37,200 nt of DNA from Oscillospiraceae bacterium (lineage in GTDB: Bacteria; Bacillota; Clostridia; Oscillospirales; Oscillospiraceae). Below the pieces are notes generated by a model. That model saw only the letters and a program-made list of their open reading frames with translations, did not search any database and was not told where the DNA came from. Positions 30,809 through 37,200 of this stretch are shown here, piece after piece. Position 1 is the stretch's first letter; the number at the start of each line of letters is the position of its first letter. Made by a program: the position numbers and the translations under genes. The stretch lies in contig JAFVZT010000004.1 in assembly GCA_017508045.1 (NCBI GenBank), positions 1 to 37,200 on the forward strand, given 5' to 3'.

Positions 30809-30891
30809 TGGTACGGGCGACAGGACTTGAACCTGCACGGTTGCCCATTGGAACCTAAATCCAACGTGTCTGCCAATTCCACCACGCCCGC
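30809..30891 (-). tRNA. tRNA-Leu (anticodon UAG)
   Basis: An 83 nt class II tRNA with encoded CCA (TGG at 30809-30811 on the plus strand). Acceptor arms GCGGGCG and CGCCCGT pair; the D-arm contains TGGCAGACAC; the anticodon loop reads TTGGA-TTTAGGT-TCCAA with anticodon TAG; a longer variable arm (TGGGCAACCGT) is typical of leucine; the T-arm has GGTTCAAGTCC. It decodes CUN-type leucine codons. Confidence 0.96.
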
Positions 30892-32800: not shown

Positions 32801-32839
32801 AACCCGGGAGCAATCGCTCCCGGGTTTTACATTTTTTTC
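32801..32839 (+). terminator. Intrinsic terminator of rny
   Basis: AACCCGGGAGC/GCTCCCGGGTT with an AATC loop, followed by TTACATTTTTTT. It sits just after the stop of the convergent 47-residue gene and may serve both. Confidence 0.9.
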
Positions 32840-32970
32840 ATAACCTTTCCGCAGCAGCGGGGGATAACTTCCCCGGCTTTGATGTGCAGCAGTTTGTGGC
32901 AGATGGGGCAGTAGACATCGCAGTCTTTTTCTGCCCGCACTACCGGCAACAAACCTTCTTTTAGTTCCAT
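32827..32970 (-). CDS. 47-residue zinc-ribbon (rubredoxin/desulforedoxin-like) protein
   Basis: ATG at 32970, TAA at 32829-32827, with AGAGGTG 6 nt upstream. The protein begins MELKEGLLPVVRAEKDCDVY and contains two cysteine pairs, YCPICHK and PRCCGKVM, suited to one zinc or iron atom. It is too short for routine gene-size cut-offs. It lies 86 bp downstream of the orphan rubrerythrin 3' end on the same strand, so it was probably the next gene after rubrerythrin before mobile DNA separated them. A redox partner role is plausible from this context only. Confidence 0.75.
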   Translation of the reverse strand: MELKEGLLPVVRAEKDCDVYCPICHKLLHIKAGEVIPRCCGKVMKKM

Positions 32971-33056: not shown

Positions 33057-33116
33057 TTACTTGAAGTATCTCTCCAGCAGGCCCTTCAGTGCCTTGCCGT
33101 GGCGGGCCTCGTCTTG
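33057..33116 (-). pseudogene. Orphan rubrerythrin 3' end, copy 1 (attachment-site remnant)
   Basis: On the minus strand the last 19 codons read DEARHGKALKGLLERYFK then TAA, the typical C-terminus of clostridial rubrerythrin-type proteins. Upstream of QDEARH the frame loses all similarity (FQAQF) and turns AT-rich. Next to the junction lies a palindrome AAAACC...GGTTTT (33129-33152). This is what remains of a gene whose 3' end was cut off by site-specific integration. Confidence 0.8.
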
Positions 33117-33214
33117 AAACTGTGCCTGAAAACCGCTTGAAATCAAGGTTTTATTATTTATTTTTCAAAAATCACACTTTTGTCACACTAAAACCGAATA
33201 ATATTGTGCTCTTT

Positions 33215-33415
33215 TTATTCATCATCGGCATTTTCTTTTTTGCGAACTTTATTAATGATTGTGATAACAATCACAAAACAGATTGTGTTTACGAATCCTT
33301 CAATTAAAATTTCGATATATGTTTTTTGGAACAACAATCCAATCAATGCAACAACAGTTGTAACAATCAAATATAGTAATAAAAATTTCAAGATATTCTT
33401 GCAGAAGTTTTTCAT
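33215..33415 (-). CDS. 66-residue membrane protein in the first integration remnant
   Basis: Starts at ATG 33415 with GGGGTG 5 nt upstream. It has two hydrophobic helices (about residues 8-28 and 38-56) and a charged C-terminus (KVRKKENADDE). The family is not recognised. It lies in AT-rich DNA between the two orphan rubrerythrin ends, so it is probably cargo of a mostly deleted element; it might also be a chance frame. Confidence 0.5.
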   Translation of the reverse strand: MKNFCKNILKFLLLYLIVTTVVALIGLLFQKTYIEILIEGFVNTICFVIVITIINKVRKKENADDE

Positions 33416-33486: not shown

Positions 33487-33546
33487 TTAGCCGAAGTACC
33501 GCTTCAGCAGGCCCTGCAGAGCCTTGCCGTGTCTTGCCTCATCTTG
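33487..33546 (-). pseudogene. Orphan rubrerythrin 3' end, copy 2 (attachment site beside the integrase)
   Basis: On the minus strand the codons read DEARHGKALQGLLKRYFG then TAA, a variant of the copy at 33057 with several substitutions. In frame it is preceded by QS and a stop. The adjoining element side again has TGAAAACC...CTTG..AA.AAAGG.TTTTA (33556-33583), resembling the sequence next to copy 1, so both were probably attacked by related integrases. Confidence 0.8.
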
Positions 33547-33607
33547 AGACTATATTGAAAACCCTTGTAAATAAAGGATTTTACACAATTAGTTTACAAA
33601 ATACCAC

Positions 33608-33636
33608 TTGAAATCCCACCATTTGCATGTTATCAT
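33608..33636 (+). promoter_or_regulatory. Predicted integrase promoter
   Basis: TTGAAA (33608-33613) and TATCAT (33631-33636) with a 17 bp spacer; AAAGGGGG precedes the ATG at 33661. Confidence 0.6.
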
Positions 33637-33660
33637 AATATCAATAAAGGGGGATTTAAT

Positions 33661-34989
33661 ATGGCAAAATATACTGGTGTAACACAAAACCCTGATGGGT
33701 CTTGGACTTATAGAATTAAAATCAAATTGCCTGATGGGAGTGTAAAAGATACTCGCATCAAAAAGGATGCTCGTGGCAATCCTTTTTTAACTGCAAGACA
33801 GGCTTTTGATGCAAAGAAAGAACACGAAACGAGAATAAGAACAAACCCAGAAGAAAACATACCAAAGAGCAAGGTAGTAACATTGCAAGATGTATATGAT
33901 AATTATCTTGAAACCACCGCAAAGAAAAGAGCACCCGCCACTCTTAAAAAACAAGACAGTATGTGGCGAAATCATATTGCACCTGAATTTGCAGACCGTG
34001 ATATTAACTCTATAACCATTATAGAACTCGATACATTTCTTGTCAATCTTTATAAGGTAAAGTCCTATAAGTACACCGAGGGATTTTTGAAATTCTTCTA
34101 TCTGCTTTTTGGTCATGCAGACCGTATGGAAGTTTTAGACCCCAACAGATACTTGCGAATGTTTGTAACCAAAGGCAAAAGACTTACAATGCCACCAATG
34201 ACACAAGCAGATTTTGAAGAATCAGAAGAGGGTGCTACCGTTTATGATGACGGTCAGCTGCAGATAATGGAAAACATTTTCAAGAGTGAAGATGGCAATT
34301 TGCTTACTGCTTTCTATCTTGGTTTGTATTGCGGTTTGCGAGTTAGCGAATGTTTTGCTCTGCGGTGGGAAAACATAAACTGGGAAAATCATTCTATAAC
34401 TGTCAATCGGCAACTGCATTATGAAAATGGTGTTTGGAAACTTTGTGCAGTTAAGACATTAACAAGTGTTAGGCAGGTTTTAATGCCTGCATTTTTGCAA
34501 GATTATCTTGATGATTATTTCCAAAAACAAAGAGAACAACAAAGTCAACTTGGAAAGGGTTATCGTAACACGGAACGAGTGTATGATGATGTTCGTGGCG
34601 AATGGCTCACAGGTGCGGATTTTGTCAATCGCAAAAGCAACGGCGAAATGCTGACAAACAACTCTTTGAAATACTGGTCTAAACGAATTATGGAACTTGC
34701 AAAGATTGATTTTAAGTTTCATAACTTGCGACACACCTATGCGACCACTTGTGCAATAAACAATGTTAATCTTCAAATGTTAATGTCAATGATGGGACAC
34801 AAGAAAATAGATACCACTAAAACATACTATATCAATACTGACAATGAACCTTTAAGAAAAAGGACGTTCAAAATCATTGATAATATGTACACATATCAAA
34901 CTGCACCTATGCCGTTAGATGAACCACCTAAGGACTATGTAGAAACCATAGATAGCAAAGGAAGGAAAACACGATATATAAAAAGATAA
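33661..34989 (+). CDS. Tyrosine recombinase/integrase
   Basis: A 442-residue site-specific recombinase of the phage/ICE type. The N-terminal arm-binding domain is AP2-like (GVTQNPDGSWTYRIKIKLPD), followed by a SAM-like core-binding domain (about 72-170) and the catalytic domain with R227 (LYCGLRVSECFALRW), K265, H354-x2-R357 (FHNLRHTYAT), H380 (MMGHKKIDTT) and the nucleophile tyrosine at about 389/390. All catalytic residues are present, so it is probably active. It sits immediately inside the orphan rubrerythrin end with its own promoter, the normal position for an integrase acting on that site. It converges on rep across a perfect palindrome. Confidence 0.95.
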   Translation: MAKYTGVTQNPDGSWTYRIKIKLPDGSVKDTRIKKDARGNPFLTARQAFDAKKEHETRIRTNPEENIPKSKVVTLQDVYDNYLETTAKKRAPATLKKQDSMWRNHIAPEFADRDINSITIIELDTFLVNLYKVKSYKYTEGFLKFFYLLFGHADRMEVLDPNRYLRMFVTKGKRLTMPPMTQADFEESEEGATVYDDGQLQIMENIFKSEDGNLLTAFYLGLYCGLRVSECFALRWENINWENHSITVNRQLHYENGVWKLCAVKTLTSVRQVLMPAFLQDYLDDYFQKQREQQSQLGKGYRNTERVYDDVRGEWLTGADFVNRKSNGEMLTNNSLKYWSKRIMELAKIDFKFHNLRHTYATTCAINNVNLQMLMSMMGHKKIDTTKTYYINTDNEPLRKRTFKIIDNMYTYQTAPMPLDEPPKDYVETIDSKGRKTRYIKR

Positions 34990-35027
34990 AACAAAGGTGG
35001 ATCATCACGTGATGATCCACCTTTGTT
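34990..35027. terminator. Perfect 38 bp palindrome between integrase and rep
   Basis: AACAAAGGTGGATCATCA, central CG, then the exact complement. It fills nearly all of the gap between the two convergent stop codons. Most likely a bidirectional terminator, although T-runs are short; a cruciform or Rep-related role cannot be excluded. Confidence 0.75.
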
Positions 35028-35028
35028 G

Positions 35029-36279
35029 TTATGCAGTTTCCTGTGCTTCTTTTAATTCATCCATATATGAGGTTATGTCATTGAACATATCGGTTGCATC
35101 TGTTTCTTCTTTGCCCATAAGTTTCACATATTCAGGCACAGGGTTTTCAAATTCACATTTGAGTTCAGCACGTTGAATATATGACCCGTCGTGTTTGAAG
35201 CCACAAAGGAACGGCACACCCTTTTCTTCGTTTTGCTCCTGATATTCGCGAACATAATCCTTGTCAATGTCAATAAGCAAGGAAATACGGCGAAAGAATT
35301 GCCACCTTTGTTCCTTTGTACCCTCAAACCATAACAAAGGGTCTTTGGTGCTTGTGATGATTATGAGTTTACCCATAAATGTTTTGTTGGTGTATCTGCT
35401 TTTGCTACTACTTGCATAGTGAGGGTCTAACATTTTTAGAGTGTCGCTCAAACTTTCTGCTTTTCCTGTCATCTCATCTACATCTCGATAGTCATCCAAG
35501 ATGAAAATATCCTCGCCCATATAGTCTTGCATTATATCGTTGCTTGCACTACTACGAGCAAAATCTCGATAACCTTTTTTCTCGCATAGCATTTTTGCAT
35601 AGAGTTCTGCATAGGTACTCTTACCGGAACCGCTATCTCCGTGTATGAAAATAATCTTCATATTTCGCTTTCCTTTCGTTGACATTCTACATTGTTGTTT
35701 CCATATTTGCTCAACGGTTTTGTCGGCAGTCAAAATTGCTCTCAAAAGTTCCTTATTGTTACATACTTTTTTCAAGTCTTTGATTTTCTTGTTTGCCTGA
35801 GCATAAGTGATTATCTCTTGCATAAAGTCAAAAACAATTTTGTCTGCTTCATTAACTAAAGAATGATTTTTTTGGTCTTCTTCAATCGCTTGTTTTAAGT
35901 CAAAATTACTGACAACTTCATCATCCTTATATTGATACTTTTCGGGAACATTGCGGTGGGTAAGGTATAAAAGCATATCTGCCTTGCGGCCGTGAACCTT
36001 ACCAACATACTGGGGTTCATCTTTGAACCATCTTGCCACATCCTTGAATGTTGCACTACCTTGTCCAAAGTTTAAATACAAATGAATATGTGGTTTTTTG
36101 AGAGTTCCTTCCTTGTGTTCAGGGTTCTTCTCTTCGTCTTTTTTGGTATATACATCTTTATCGTGAATGATGTATGCCCATTCCTTAATTGTTCGGTGCT
36201 TATCAATAATTTCTTGCATTTCTTCTAATGAAACTTTTAAGTGTTTAATTTGTTGTGAATATTCACAATGTTTTGCCAT
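35029..36279 (-). CDS. Rep protein: HUH endonuclease plus SF3-type helicase (CRESS-like)
   Basis: A 416-residue rolling-circle initiator. The N-terminal Rep_2/pMV158-like HUH domain shows WAYIIHDKDVY (motif 1), HUH histidines H64 and H66 in KKPHIHLYLNF, and the candidate nicking tyrosine Y105 in MLLYLTHRN. The C-terminal half has a P-loop helicase: Walker A GDSGSGKST (214-222), Walker B IFILDDYRD (258-266), then a sensor-like LIIITSTKDPLLWF. HUH plus SF3 helicase in this order is the domain plan of Reps of CRESS-DNA viruses and of related bacterial plasmids. It would nick at a double-strand origin and unwind, allowing the element a circular replicating phase. The ATG has AAGGAGA. Convergent with the integrase. 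Confidence 0.88.
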   Translation of the reverse strand: MAKHCEYSQQIKHLKVSLEEMQEIIDKHRTIKEWAYIIHDKDVYTKKDEEKNPEHKEGTLKKPHIHLYLNFGQGSATFKDVARWFKDEPQYVGKVHGRKADMLLYLTHRNVPEKYQYKDDEVVSNFDLKQAIEEDQKNHSLVNEADKIVFDFMQEIITYAQANKKIKDLKKVCNNKELLRAILTADKTVEQIWKQQCRMSTKGKRNMKIIFIHGDSGSGKSTYAELYAKMLCEKKGYRDFARSSASNDIMQDYMGEDIFILDDYRDVDEMTGKAESLSDTLKMLDPHYASSSKSRYTNKTFMGKLIIITSTKDPLLWFEGTKEQRWQFFRRISLLIDIDKDYVREYQEQNEEKGVPFLCGFKHDGSYIQRAELKCEFENPVPEYVKLMGKEETDATDMFNDITSYMDELKEAQETA

Positions 36280-36303
36280 AACGGTGGTCTCCTTTCAGAA
36301 TTT

Positions 36304-36425
36304 GAATTTAAAAATTCTGAATACGGACAAAACAAAAGACCTAACAGTTTCCCGTTAGGTCTAAATTAGCACCGATTAAAAGTAGAAATAACGGAAAACG
36401 GAAAGCAATAGTAACACTATTGTTC
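36304..36425 (-). promoter_or_regulatory. Rep leader with terminator-like hairpins
   Basis: On the minus strand, upstream of rep: a hairpin CAATAGT-gtt-ACTATTG (about 36407-36423), then AGACCTAAC/GTTAGGTCT (36337-36362) followed by TTTTGTTTTG, a textbook intrinsic terminator, then CAGAATTT/AAATTCTG just before the ribosome site. A terminator inside the 5' leader suggests attenuation of rep, as in copy-control of rolling-circle plasmids. It could instead end a transcript arriving from the right. Confidence 0.55.
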
Positions 36426-36703
36426 CTTTGTTCTGTCACCCGTTTTTTTCTACTACTTACTGCCTGAATGTCTGCTATCTATCTTCGTTCAAGGTCAGTC
36501 GCCGCTTCCGTCGATGGAGCATCAATCTCTTGTAAGACGATTTCGTCATCGGGTGGGTGTGCTCATTTGTTGCTGCCCACTGGCGATACGGTATCATTAT
36601 TCAGTTGTCGCTCTCTATCATTGAGAGCATTATCAGTATATCATATTTTGGGTTAAAAGTCAAGTCTTTCGCCCTGAATTTTACCCTTTTTACACTTTTT
36701 CTA
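36426..36703. other. Noncoding control region of the element (possible origin)
   Basis: No convincing gene. Hairpins include GCTCTC-tatcatt-GAGAGC (about 36610-36630) and TGGGTG...TGCCCA. The short open frames here (up to about 62 codons) have no supported start. Its position upstream of rep and its secondary structure make it the best place to look for a nick site. Confidence 0.4.
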
Positions 36704-36745
36704 CACGGCGTTGGACAAGCCCTCCAACGCCGTGTTTTCCTTTAT
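36704..36745 (+). terminator. Strong intrinsic terminator
   Basis: A perfect 12 bp stem CACGGCGTTGGA/TCCAACGCCGTG followed by TTTTCCTTTATTT. It acts on plus-strand transcripts although no plus-strand gene precedes it, so a small RNA antisense to the rep leader may end here. Confidence 0.8.
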
Positions 36746-36815
36746 TTATAAGGGTTTCTTATATCAATTACCCTTTTACCCTTTCAATCGTAATTCTTGC
36801 ATTTTTTGAAACTCA

Positions 36816-36844
36816 TTTACTTTTGCACGGAAATATGCTATAAT
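36816..36844 (+). promoter_or_regulatory. Predicted promoter of the acetyltransferase gene
   Basis: TTTACT (36816-36821) and perfect TATAAT (36839-36844) with a 17 bp spacer. Confidence 0.65.
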
Positions 36845-36882
36845 ATAAACAATTCGATAAACTTGAATTTGGAGGGGACGAT

Positions 36883-37200
36883 ATGGTTGAACGTGCGAAC
36901 ATTAATGATATTGCCGCATTGACGGCATTAAGATTGGAATTTTTGCAAGAAGACTGTGGTGAACTGAATGAAGAAGTCATAAGTAAGCTTGTCGAAGCTT
37001 TGCCAGCATACTTTGAAAAGAATCTTAACCATAATATTTTCTGCTACCTAATTAGAGAAAAGGAAAATGTCGTTGCCTGTGCATTCTTGCTAATAGATGA
37101 AAAACCTGCAAGCCCGATGTTCATAACAGGTAGAACAGGAACAGTACTCAATGTATACACAAAACCGATATGCCGACATAAGGGATATGCAACAGAGATA
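36883..37200 (+). CDS. GNAT family N-acetyltransferase, 3' part beyond the window
   Basis: ATG at 36883 with GGAGGGG 5 nt upstream; 106 codons are visible and the frame is still open. The sequence starts MVERANINDIAALTALRLEF and later shows the acetyl-CoA-binding region beginning LNVYTKPICRHKGYATEI, matching the GNAT motif A pattern (V-x-x-x-x-R-x-x-G-x-G/A) with His-Lys-Gly-Tyr-Ala in place of the usual Arg-Gly-x-Gly. The substrate is unknown; members of this class acetylate antibiotics, proteins or small amines. It is AT-rich and probably cargo of the integrated element. Confidence 0.85.
   Translation, partial: MVERANINDIAALTALRLEFLQEDCGELNEEVISKLVEALPAYFEKNLNHNIFCYLIREKENVVACAFLLIDEKPASPMFITGRTGTVLNVYTKPICRHKGYATEI

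Follow-up and report, generated by a model that had tools for sequence, protein, structure and literature searches.

The window analysed here, a 37,200-nucleotide stretch from an Oscillospiraceae bacterium (assembly GCA_017508045.1), is the entire contig JAFVZT010000004.1 (hereafter C24), and its right end carries most of an integrated genetic element that encodes a tyrosine integrase and a replication protein (Rep) joining an HUH nuclease to a superfamily 3 (SF3) helicase. The GC content is 50.1% for positions 1-32800 and 37.1% for positions 33550-37200. From left to right, the element comprises a duplicate of the 3' end of a rubrerythrin gene (rbr), which we take as the left attachment site attL (33490-33551, minus strand), the integrase gene (33661-34989, plus strand), the rep gene (35029-36279, minus strand), a hairpin upstream of rep (36703-36735, minus strand) and, in a presumed cargo slot (36871-37200, plus strand), the start of a gene for a GNAT-type acetyltransferase, within which the contig stops. 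The first-pass annotation of this DNA had proposed that the integrase is intact, and this is borne out by an open frame of 442 residues that matches PF00589 (2.4e-19). The strings GLRVSE, KTLTSVR, HNLRHT, MGH and TYY, which begin at residues 225, 265, 354, 378 and 388, are the catalytic motifs.

The right end of this copy of the element very probably lies on another contig of the genome, C15 (95,629 bp). C15 carries an intact rubrerythrin gene with the presumed right attachment site, attR, followed by low-GC DNA (39.0%) that runs to the contig end and encodes a 229-residue MobV relaxase with a nearly full-length match to Mob_Pre (PF01076, 3.4e-28), as well as a 51-residue open reading frame (ORF). 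attL and attR have GAGGCAAGACACGG in common, and their longest exact identity lies at 33527-33540 of the window (CCGTGTCTTGCCTC on the plus strand). The left end of the element is marked by an imperfect inverted repeat (33558-33582), whose AAAACCCTTG reappears on C15 at the right end, and by the arm-type 13-mer TTGAAATCCCACC (33608-33620, plus strand), which also recurs there, together with AAATCCCACCAT. Two AAATCCCACC repeats matching this left arm at 33608 occur in 4.6 kb of C15 (locus L105), against 0.02 expected. A single Rep and a single MobV were found in the genome (~76% complete), and only one of its three PF02915 matches is a rubrerythrin of the target type. We assign C15 to the same element because the intact rbr with attR, the arm repeats, the GC content, the single Rep and MobV and the gene order of an independent copy of the element (L126, see below) all agree.

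This sequence evidence makes it very likely that we are dealing with an integrative and mobilizable element (IME), its left two thirds or so lying in the window and its Rep being of the YLxH type (pCRESS4-8). We are similarly confident of its predicted gene order, which reads native rbr tail, remnant of an older insertion, second rbr tail (attL), integrase, Rep, origin-like hairpin and GNAT gene, then a gap, followed on C15 by the MobV relaxase, the small ORF and attR in the intact rubrerythrin gene. The size of the element amounts to 5.2 kb of sequenced DNA plus the unsequenced gap. The element has a site-specific integrase of its own, boundaries made of att repeats and, through the inferred contig join, a relaxase gene, as expected of an IME, and the frames of integrase, Rep and MobV are all open. 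The first-pass annotation had seen an integrated replicon alone, a view that is not supported as it stands: the MobV relaxase on C15 had been overlooked, and it is because of this gene that we regard the element as an IME. That annotation could not take in the whole element, since the window is an entire contig and breaks off inside the cargo gene; of the range it gave, 33487 to 37200, the left edge is correct and the right edge is merely the contig end. In the sequenced part, a Pfam scan of the six main ORFs (other small ORFs being outside the scan) recognised no viral structural genes, a capsid gene included, and we noticed no ORF for conjugation machinery and none resembling a TcpA-type coupling protein.

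The Rep protein (416 residues) matches Rep_OBD (PF01719, E=7.7e-12, residues 19-128) and RNA_helicase (PF00910, E=2.3e-9, residues 210-310), both beyond the curated cut-offs. Domain matches and alignments identify H64, H66, Y105 and H108 in the HUH nuclease and G219-K220, D262/D263 and R331 in the helicase; motif III reads YLTH (residues 105-108). The helicase part of a 26-Rep profile retrieved the PDB chains 9pqj_A (2.6e-12), 9pqq_A (4.9e-12), 7lar_A (1.9e-7) and 8xms_A (1.5e-6), which bear the names Replication-associated protein or helicase Rep. We take these chains to be Reps of circular Rep-encoding single-stranded (CRESS) DNA viruses. In an alignment of ten Reps, the HUH histidines, Tyr105, His108, the Walker A GK pair and R331 are all invariant. 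A wider alignment of 90 Reps (80 genome loci, the window, 7 plasmids and 2 viral contigs) has the tyrosine in 90/90, HxH in 87/90, GK in all 87 that reach that position and YLxH in 81/90; motif II reads HxD in L149 and L157 and HxT in L151. The proposed HUH-SF3 fusion is therefore well founded in Pfam domains, residues and PDB profile matches, and neither of the findings named in advance as fatal to it, a C-terminal domain unrelated to SF3 or an HUH tyrosine that varies among homologues, was obtained. The notion of a Rep close to those of eukaryotic viruses fares less well: it is of the YLxH type, which in the tree of Kazlauskas 2019 (PMC6668415, cited throughout from the excerpts available) is basal, next to pMV158-type Reps, rather than among the groups nearest the viruses. 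The Rep is rare, being detected in 2/99 related genomes (its own and one with a weak partial match) and in 6/391 genomes of the class, its own included, the remaining five matches being weak and partial. PADLOC matches were weak (best 6e-4), and a single-protein scan of viral contigs returned no relative.

The hairpin at 36703-36735 is a candidate double-strand origin, with a perfect 13-bp stem and, in the sense of rep, the loop GGGCTTG within GGGCTTGTCC. The latter occurs once in the window, and 13/100 shuffled sequences also had at least one occurrence; GGACAAGCCCTCC of the hairpin is found nowhere else in the genome. The 9-mer GACAAGCCC or its complement is located up to 1.5 kb upstream of rep in 36/41 loci, a set in which L163 and L168 take the place of L130 and L146 but which otherwise equals the 41-locus sister clade described below (39 shared members). 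In a strict test, we required GGCTTGT, flanked by 8 or more perfect pairs, between -1000 and +100 of rep in 80 loci and the window: the hairpin was present in 51/81 loci on the Rep-sense strand and in 0/81 on the other, and 139 permuted 7-mers gave a mean of 0.09 loci and a maximum of 4 (TGGGCTT, which overlaps the true motif). Under a looser rule, 57/83 loci have the hairpin with the loop GGGCTTGTC, and these 57 display 48 distinct 5' stem sequences. The surveyed loci are not all independent, as they include both the window and L126 and several loci from one genome. The GGGCTTGTC hairpin is also present in the phytoplasma plasmids pOYNIM and pAYWB-II. Judging from this conservation, the GGGCTTGTC stem-loop is likely the nick site and origin of the Rep family. 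A search for a conserved nick site upstream of rep, suggested by the first-pass annotation, has thus yielded a candidate, and its idea of a rolling-circle replicon residing in the chromosome gains support from this origin-like structure.

The origin of eukaryotic CRESS-DNA viruses contains a NANTATTAC-type nonanucleotide. The conserved loop in the family of the window Rep is GGGCTTGTC and not of this type. We rejected a CRESS nonanucleotide or a pMV158 nick site as the origin: the window does contain TAGTGTTAC and CTACTACTTA, yet across the 41 loci there is no conservation of either type, TA(A/G)TATTAC being found upstream of rep in 1/41 and TACTACGA in 3/41 at scattered positions. We found no publication describing GCTTGTC as the nick site of a replication initiator, and the phrase 'nick site' is absent from the available part of PMC8780604, on pCRESS structures.

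The 431 nucleotides upstream of rep fold better than shuffled sequences (z -5.2). They include a terminator-like hairpin in the rep leader (36337-36362, minus strand) that might act as a copy-control attenuator, and more strong secondary structure was observed at 36395-36460, within a region 95% identical in L126. Both structures possibly reflect copy-number control by attenuation. The best promoter-like site for rep is TTGACT-17-TATACT with a TG before the second hexamer (36635-36663, minus strand), but such sites are not in excess over shuffled sequences in the region (7 versus 6.2). A 19-bp perfect inverted repeat (34990-35027), terminator-like on the minus strand, separates the convergent ends of int and rep.

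We found 115 relatives of the Rep and used the best 80. Loci L106-L108, also retrieved, were set aside. In a midpoint-drawn tree of 83 rows, with several long branches and 7 short Reps dropped, the window Rep and that of L126 join a clade of 41 Reps (99/90; the 41 alone 98/83) and not pCPa. The best plasmid matches of the window Rep are pCPa (34.7% identity) and its phytoplasma kin. Flanks of up to 8 kb, often cut by contig ends, were searched with integrase and MobV profiles built from 3 and 2 seeds; the former covers the tyrosine type only and may miss distant tyrosine recombinases. The flanks of the sister clade contain a tyrosine integrase in 3/41 loci and MobV in 0/41, and in the 32 loci outside the clade there are 21 with a tyrosine integrase, 6 with MobV and 3 with both. 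Downstream sequence of 5.5 kb or more is available for 24 sister-clade loci, 16 of which encode a large ATPase-like protein with a membrane anchor (up to ~740 residues) and, in several members, a Walker A motif such as GTIGTGKTT. The protein has no convincing Pfam or PDB match, and two members lacked a PHROG match. Other observations on sister-clade elements (for example L141:6852-16450) are a small upstream gene that by eye resembles those for single-stranded DNA-binding proteins, and large secreted-looking proteins encoded downstream. The sister-clade loci are possibly undescribed single-stranded DNA (ssDNA) virus-like elements of gut Clostridia. The nuclease part of the Rep profile also picks up three inovirus records (L214-L216), in which neither the hairpin nor the sister-clade ATPase was seen.

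L126 (JAFYQN010000180.1, RGIG7330), a contig of a metagenome-assembled genome from water-buffalo cecum, provides an independent copy of the element. Its Rep is 98% identical to the window Rep at the amino acid level. Its DNA is 95% identical to window positions 34993-36870, then differs over 887 bp, and then matches the C15 end at 86%, both blocks lying on a single contig with order and orientation preserved. By inspection, the differing stretch carries a helix-turn-helix (HTH)-like gene where the window has the GNAT gene, and the neighbour of the element is not rubrerythrin but a rumA-like methyltransferase gene, whose 3' end it adjoins; on the integrase side, the contig stops within the element. 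Site and cargo thus differ around a stable Rep-origin-MobV core. The status of the GNAT gene as cargo, put forward by the first-pass annotation, is favoured by position, the same slot in L126 holding another gene; less favourably, the gene is cut off at the contig end and the Pfam match of its open frame (36883-37200) is marginal, just under the cut-off (Acetyltransf_1, 5.5e-4, 20.6 bits versus 20.7). We considered that the GNAT gene might continue into C15 and rejected this. Its end must lie in the gap because the first bases of C15 match the L126 sequence that follows the cargo ORF.

A mechanism can be proposed from these features. The integrase would recombine attL with attR within GAGGCAAGACACGG to yield an excised circle, which would leave rubrerythrin intact because the element supplies the last codons of that gene. 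Rep would open the 36703-36735 hairpin, use Tyr105 to nick the GGGCTTGTC loop and, with its SF3 domain, unwind the DNA for rolling-circle replication. MobV would nick an origin of transfer (oriT) adjoining its gene, and the single strand would exit through the conjugation pore of another element. If Rep replicates and MobV transfers, replication and transfer would therefore be divided between two HUH enzymes.

Several observations weigh against the reading of the element as an IME whose Rep acts at the GGGCTTGTC hairpin. The junction between C24 and C15 is unsequenced, with nothing bridging the gap, and the genome is only ~76% complete, so that the gap may hold further genes. MobV was found in the fetched flank of only 6/80 Rep loci, and therefore its pairing with this Rep is not the rule. 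In the strict test, no hairpin was scored in 30/81 loci, although in some it is present farther off or with an altered loop, and pCPa, Leptotrichia wadei p3 and pRGI00478 yielded none. Lastly, the window hairpin itself, with its 13-bp stem, 8 G-C pairs and T-rich tail, is terminator-like on the plus strand.

The most serious alternative, which we nevertheless consider unlikely, is that the PF01719-PF00910 protein is mainly a transfer relaxase, as assumed for the streptococcal Class_IME_4, the hairpin then being its oriT and MobV an accessory. Coluzzi 2017 (PMC5357655, also cited from the excerpts available) indeed files such proteins as relaxases, beside an integrase and, in 4/15 cases (Table 2), a TcpA coupling protein, and two staphylococcal plasmids with relatives of the Rep have a gene for an FtsK/SpoIIIE-domain protein beside rep. 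The window element, however, has a canonical MobV in addition and no coupling-protein-like ORF in its sequenced part, and the Rep family with its hairpin is also present in phytoplasma plasmids typed as non-mobilizable. The terminator-like features of the window hairpin raise another, rather improbable alternative, namely that the GGGCTTGTC hairpin is a transcription terminator and not an origin: T-runs follow 0/51 hairpins on the Rep-sense strand and 6/51 on the other, and the loop is fixed while the stems differ, on a single strand relative to rep. That the element is a dead remnant which merely looks intact could be argued from the adjoining degenerate 0.37-kb remnant and the truncated GNAT gene, yet we give this little credence in view of the open frames of integrase, Rep and MobV and of the L126 Rep; the near-identity of the two Reps beside different genes in two genomes rather suggests recent movement. 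Least probable of all, C15 might represent a different element at another rubrerythrin copy, with the window element having another right half, given that the contigs do not overlap (there is no second genome match for 36000-37200), the gap is unsequenced and the genome incomplete; this is at odds with the single rubrerythrin of this type, the single Rep and MobV, the matching arm and end repeats and the presence of both blocks on one contig in L126.

The presumed IME resembles several known systems. It shares with the pCRESS YLxH supergroup (pCRESS4-8) an HUH-SF3 Rep, the YLxH motif III and site-specific integration, and no capsid gene was recognised in its sequenced part. As far as the excerpts of PMC6668415 allow a comparison, it differs from pCRESS4-8 by its MobV and its rubrerythrin 3' end target. 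According to the same source, outside pCRESS groups 7 and 9, 97.5% of pCRESS Reps belong to site-specifically integrated elements. As reported in PMC5357655, IMEs with a tyrosine integrase include 15 with PF01719-PF00910 and 10 with MobT and MobV; in the excerpts, no class combining PF01719-PF00910 with MobV appears among 144 streptococcal IMEs. The element has the Rep domain pair and tyrosine integrase of IME_Class_4, but there the PF01719-PF00910 protein is the sole relaxase, whereas here, given the inferred join, a separate MobV is present and no TcpA-like ORF was seen in the sequenced part. Like IME_Class_10 (MobT, MobV and tyrosine integrase), it has two HUH enzymes, one of rolling-circle replication type and a MobV; unlike in that class, the former is PF01719-PF00910 and not PF02486, and no repA_N-like ORF was noticed, although none was searched for. 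The Leptotrichia wadei plasmid pJMUB3936p3 (NZ_AP019844.1), as annotated, also combines a Rep, a MOBV relaxase and a site-specific integrase on one replicon; it is recorded as a circular plasmid, its Rep is 21.5% identical to the window Rep, and it is the Leptotrichia plasmid mentioned above as lacking the GGGCTTGTC hairpin. The pMV158/pE194 plasmids have the Rep_OBD nuclease in common with the element, and pMV158 carries a MobV-type relaxase as well. Their Reps lack the helicase domain of the window Rep (PMC6668415), and their nick sequence is TACTAC(C)G/A (PMC3541243), not GGGCTTGTC. As for eukaryotic CRESS-DNA viruses, their motif III is YxxK (PMC6668415), in contrast to YLTH in the window Rep.

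The arrangement is therefore not new: according to these sources, integrated elements of this sort have been known since 2019 and IMEs with this Rep type since 2017. Since this kind of element was already known, what is new and more useful is the origin motif. The element bears on an open point, whether the PF01719-PF00910 proteins of integrative elements start replication or transfer, and makes the question testable, since a canonical relaxase is encoded separately. Biochemical work on bacterial relatives of CRESS Reps would gain a substrate in the conserved GGGCTTGTC stem-loop. More tentatively, and with the odds rather against it, GGGCTTGTC in a variable stem might be the nick site common to the YLxH Reps of IMEs, of phytoplasma plasmids and of a large, as yet undescribed virus-like lineage of gut Clostridia, to which the window IME would be sister, a CRESS-type replication module moving between bacterial ssDNA-virus-like and conjugation-dependent elements.

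Rubrerythrin as the integration target, another claim of the first-pass annotation, is borne out by the duplicated 3' end and by the intact rbr in the two nearest relatives of the integrase. The two rbr 3' ends of the window (33060-33121 and 33490-33551, both minus strand) are 83% identical across 59 nucleotides. Beyond the outer copy lies a host gene that by inspection encodes a zinc-ribbon-like protein (32827-32970, minus strand) and follows rubrerythrin in congeners: an rbr C-terminus is located upstream of it, on the same strand and within 1.2 kb, in 22/29 congener loci examined (the non-self loci returned by a search that matched 52/101 genomes). The outer copy is 90 bp from the zinc-ribbon start, and we read it as the native tail because this spacing is near that of congeners (74-79 bp in the four tightest loci, by the same measure). 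Although integrase matches were found in 92 genomes, only the two closest in the genus (G486 and G038, 38% and 37%) were examined for rbr; both have a duplicated rbr tail, with the intact rbr at the far side of the element. Since these also adjoin rbr tails, we predict that three or more related integrases target rubrerythrin 3' ends. We noticed nothing Rep-like in the ORF lists of the G486 and G038 elements, and we found no publication tying rubrerythrin to IMEs.

Between the two tails, the ~0.37-kb segment 33122-33489 (29.5% GC) is a second, degenerate element end that the first-pass annotation did not report. The element-end repeat is still present near 33129-33152, and we interpret the segment as the putative remnant of a related element that had inserted here before. 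Its hydrophobic 66-residue ORF (33215-33415, minus strand) has no match at E 1e-6 among the loci compared (seven loci, its own contig and L126, excluded). Two different elements with related integrases were observed at the same rubrerythrin site (L103:8136-13541 and L104:4893-13476), with resolvase-like and HTH-like ORFs by inspection. Extra rubrerythrin tails are present in the congener loci L050 and L055, and partial ones in L058 and L060; among L041, L050, L055, L058, L060, L064 and L069, those without an extra tail have rbr 0.8-1.2 kb from the zinc-ribbon gene. The site seems to be used repeatedly in congeners. We discarded the RNase Y neighbourhood as an empty-site reference, because 29 congener RNase Y loci had no rbr tail within their 1.5-kb flanks. 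The sole tRNA gene found in the window, for tRNA-Leu (30809-30891), is located away from the element.

By eye, a hairpin that differs by one compensatory pair between C15 and L126 can be discerned upstream of mob in both, along with longer inverted repeats; the hairpin is only a candidate oriT. A relative of the C15 MobV (61%) is encoded in the congener G033 (L229:3774-6890, on contig C20 of that genome), by inspection beside a serine-integrase-like ORF and downstream of an smpB-like ORF, and the mobilization gene is thus apparently shared with another kind of element.

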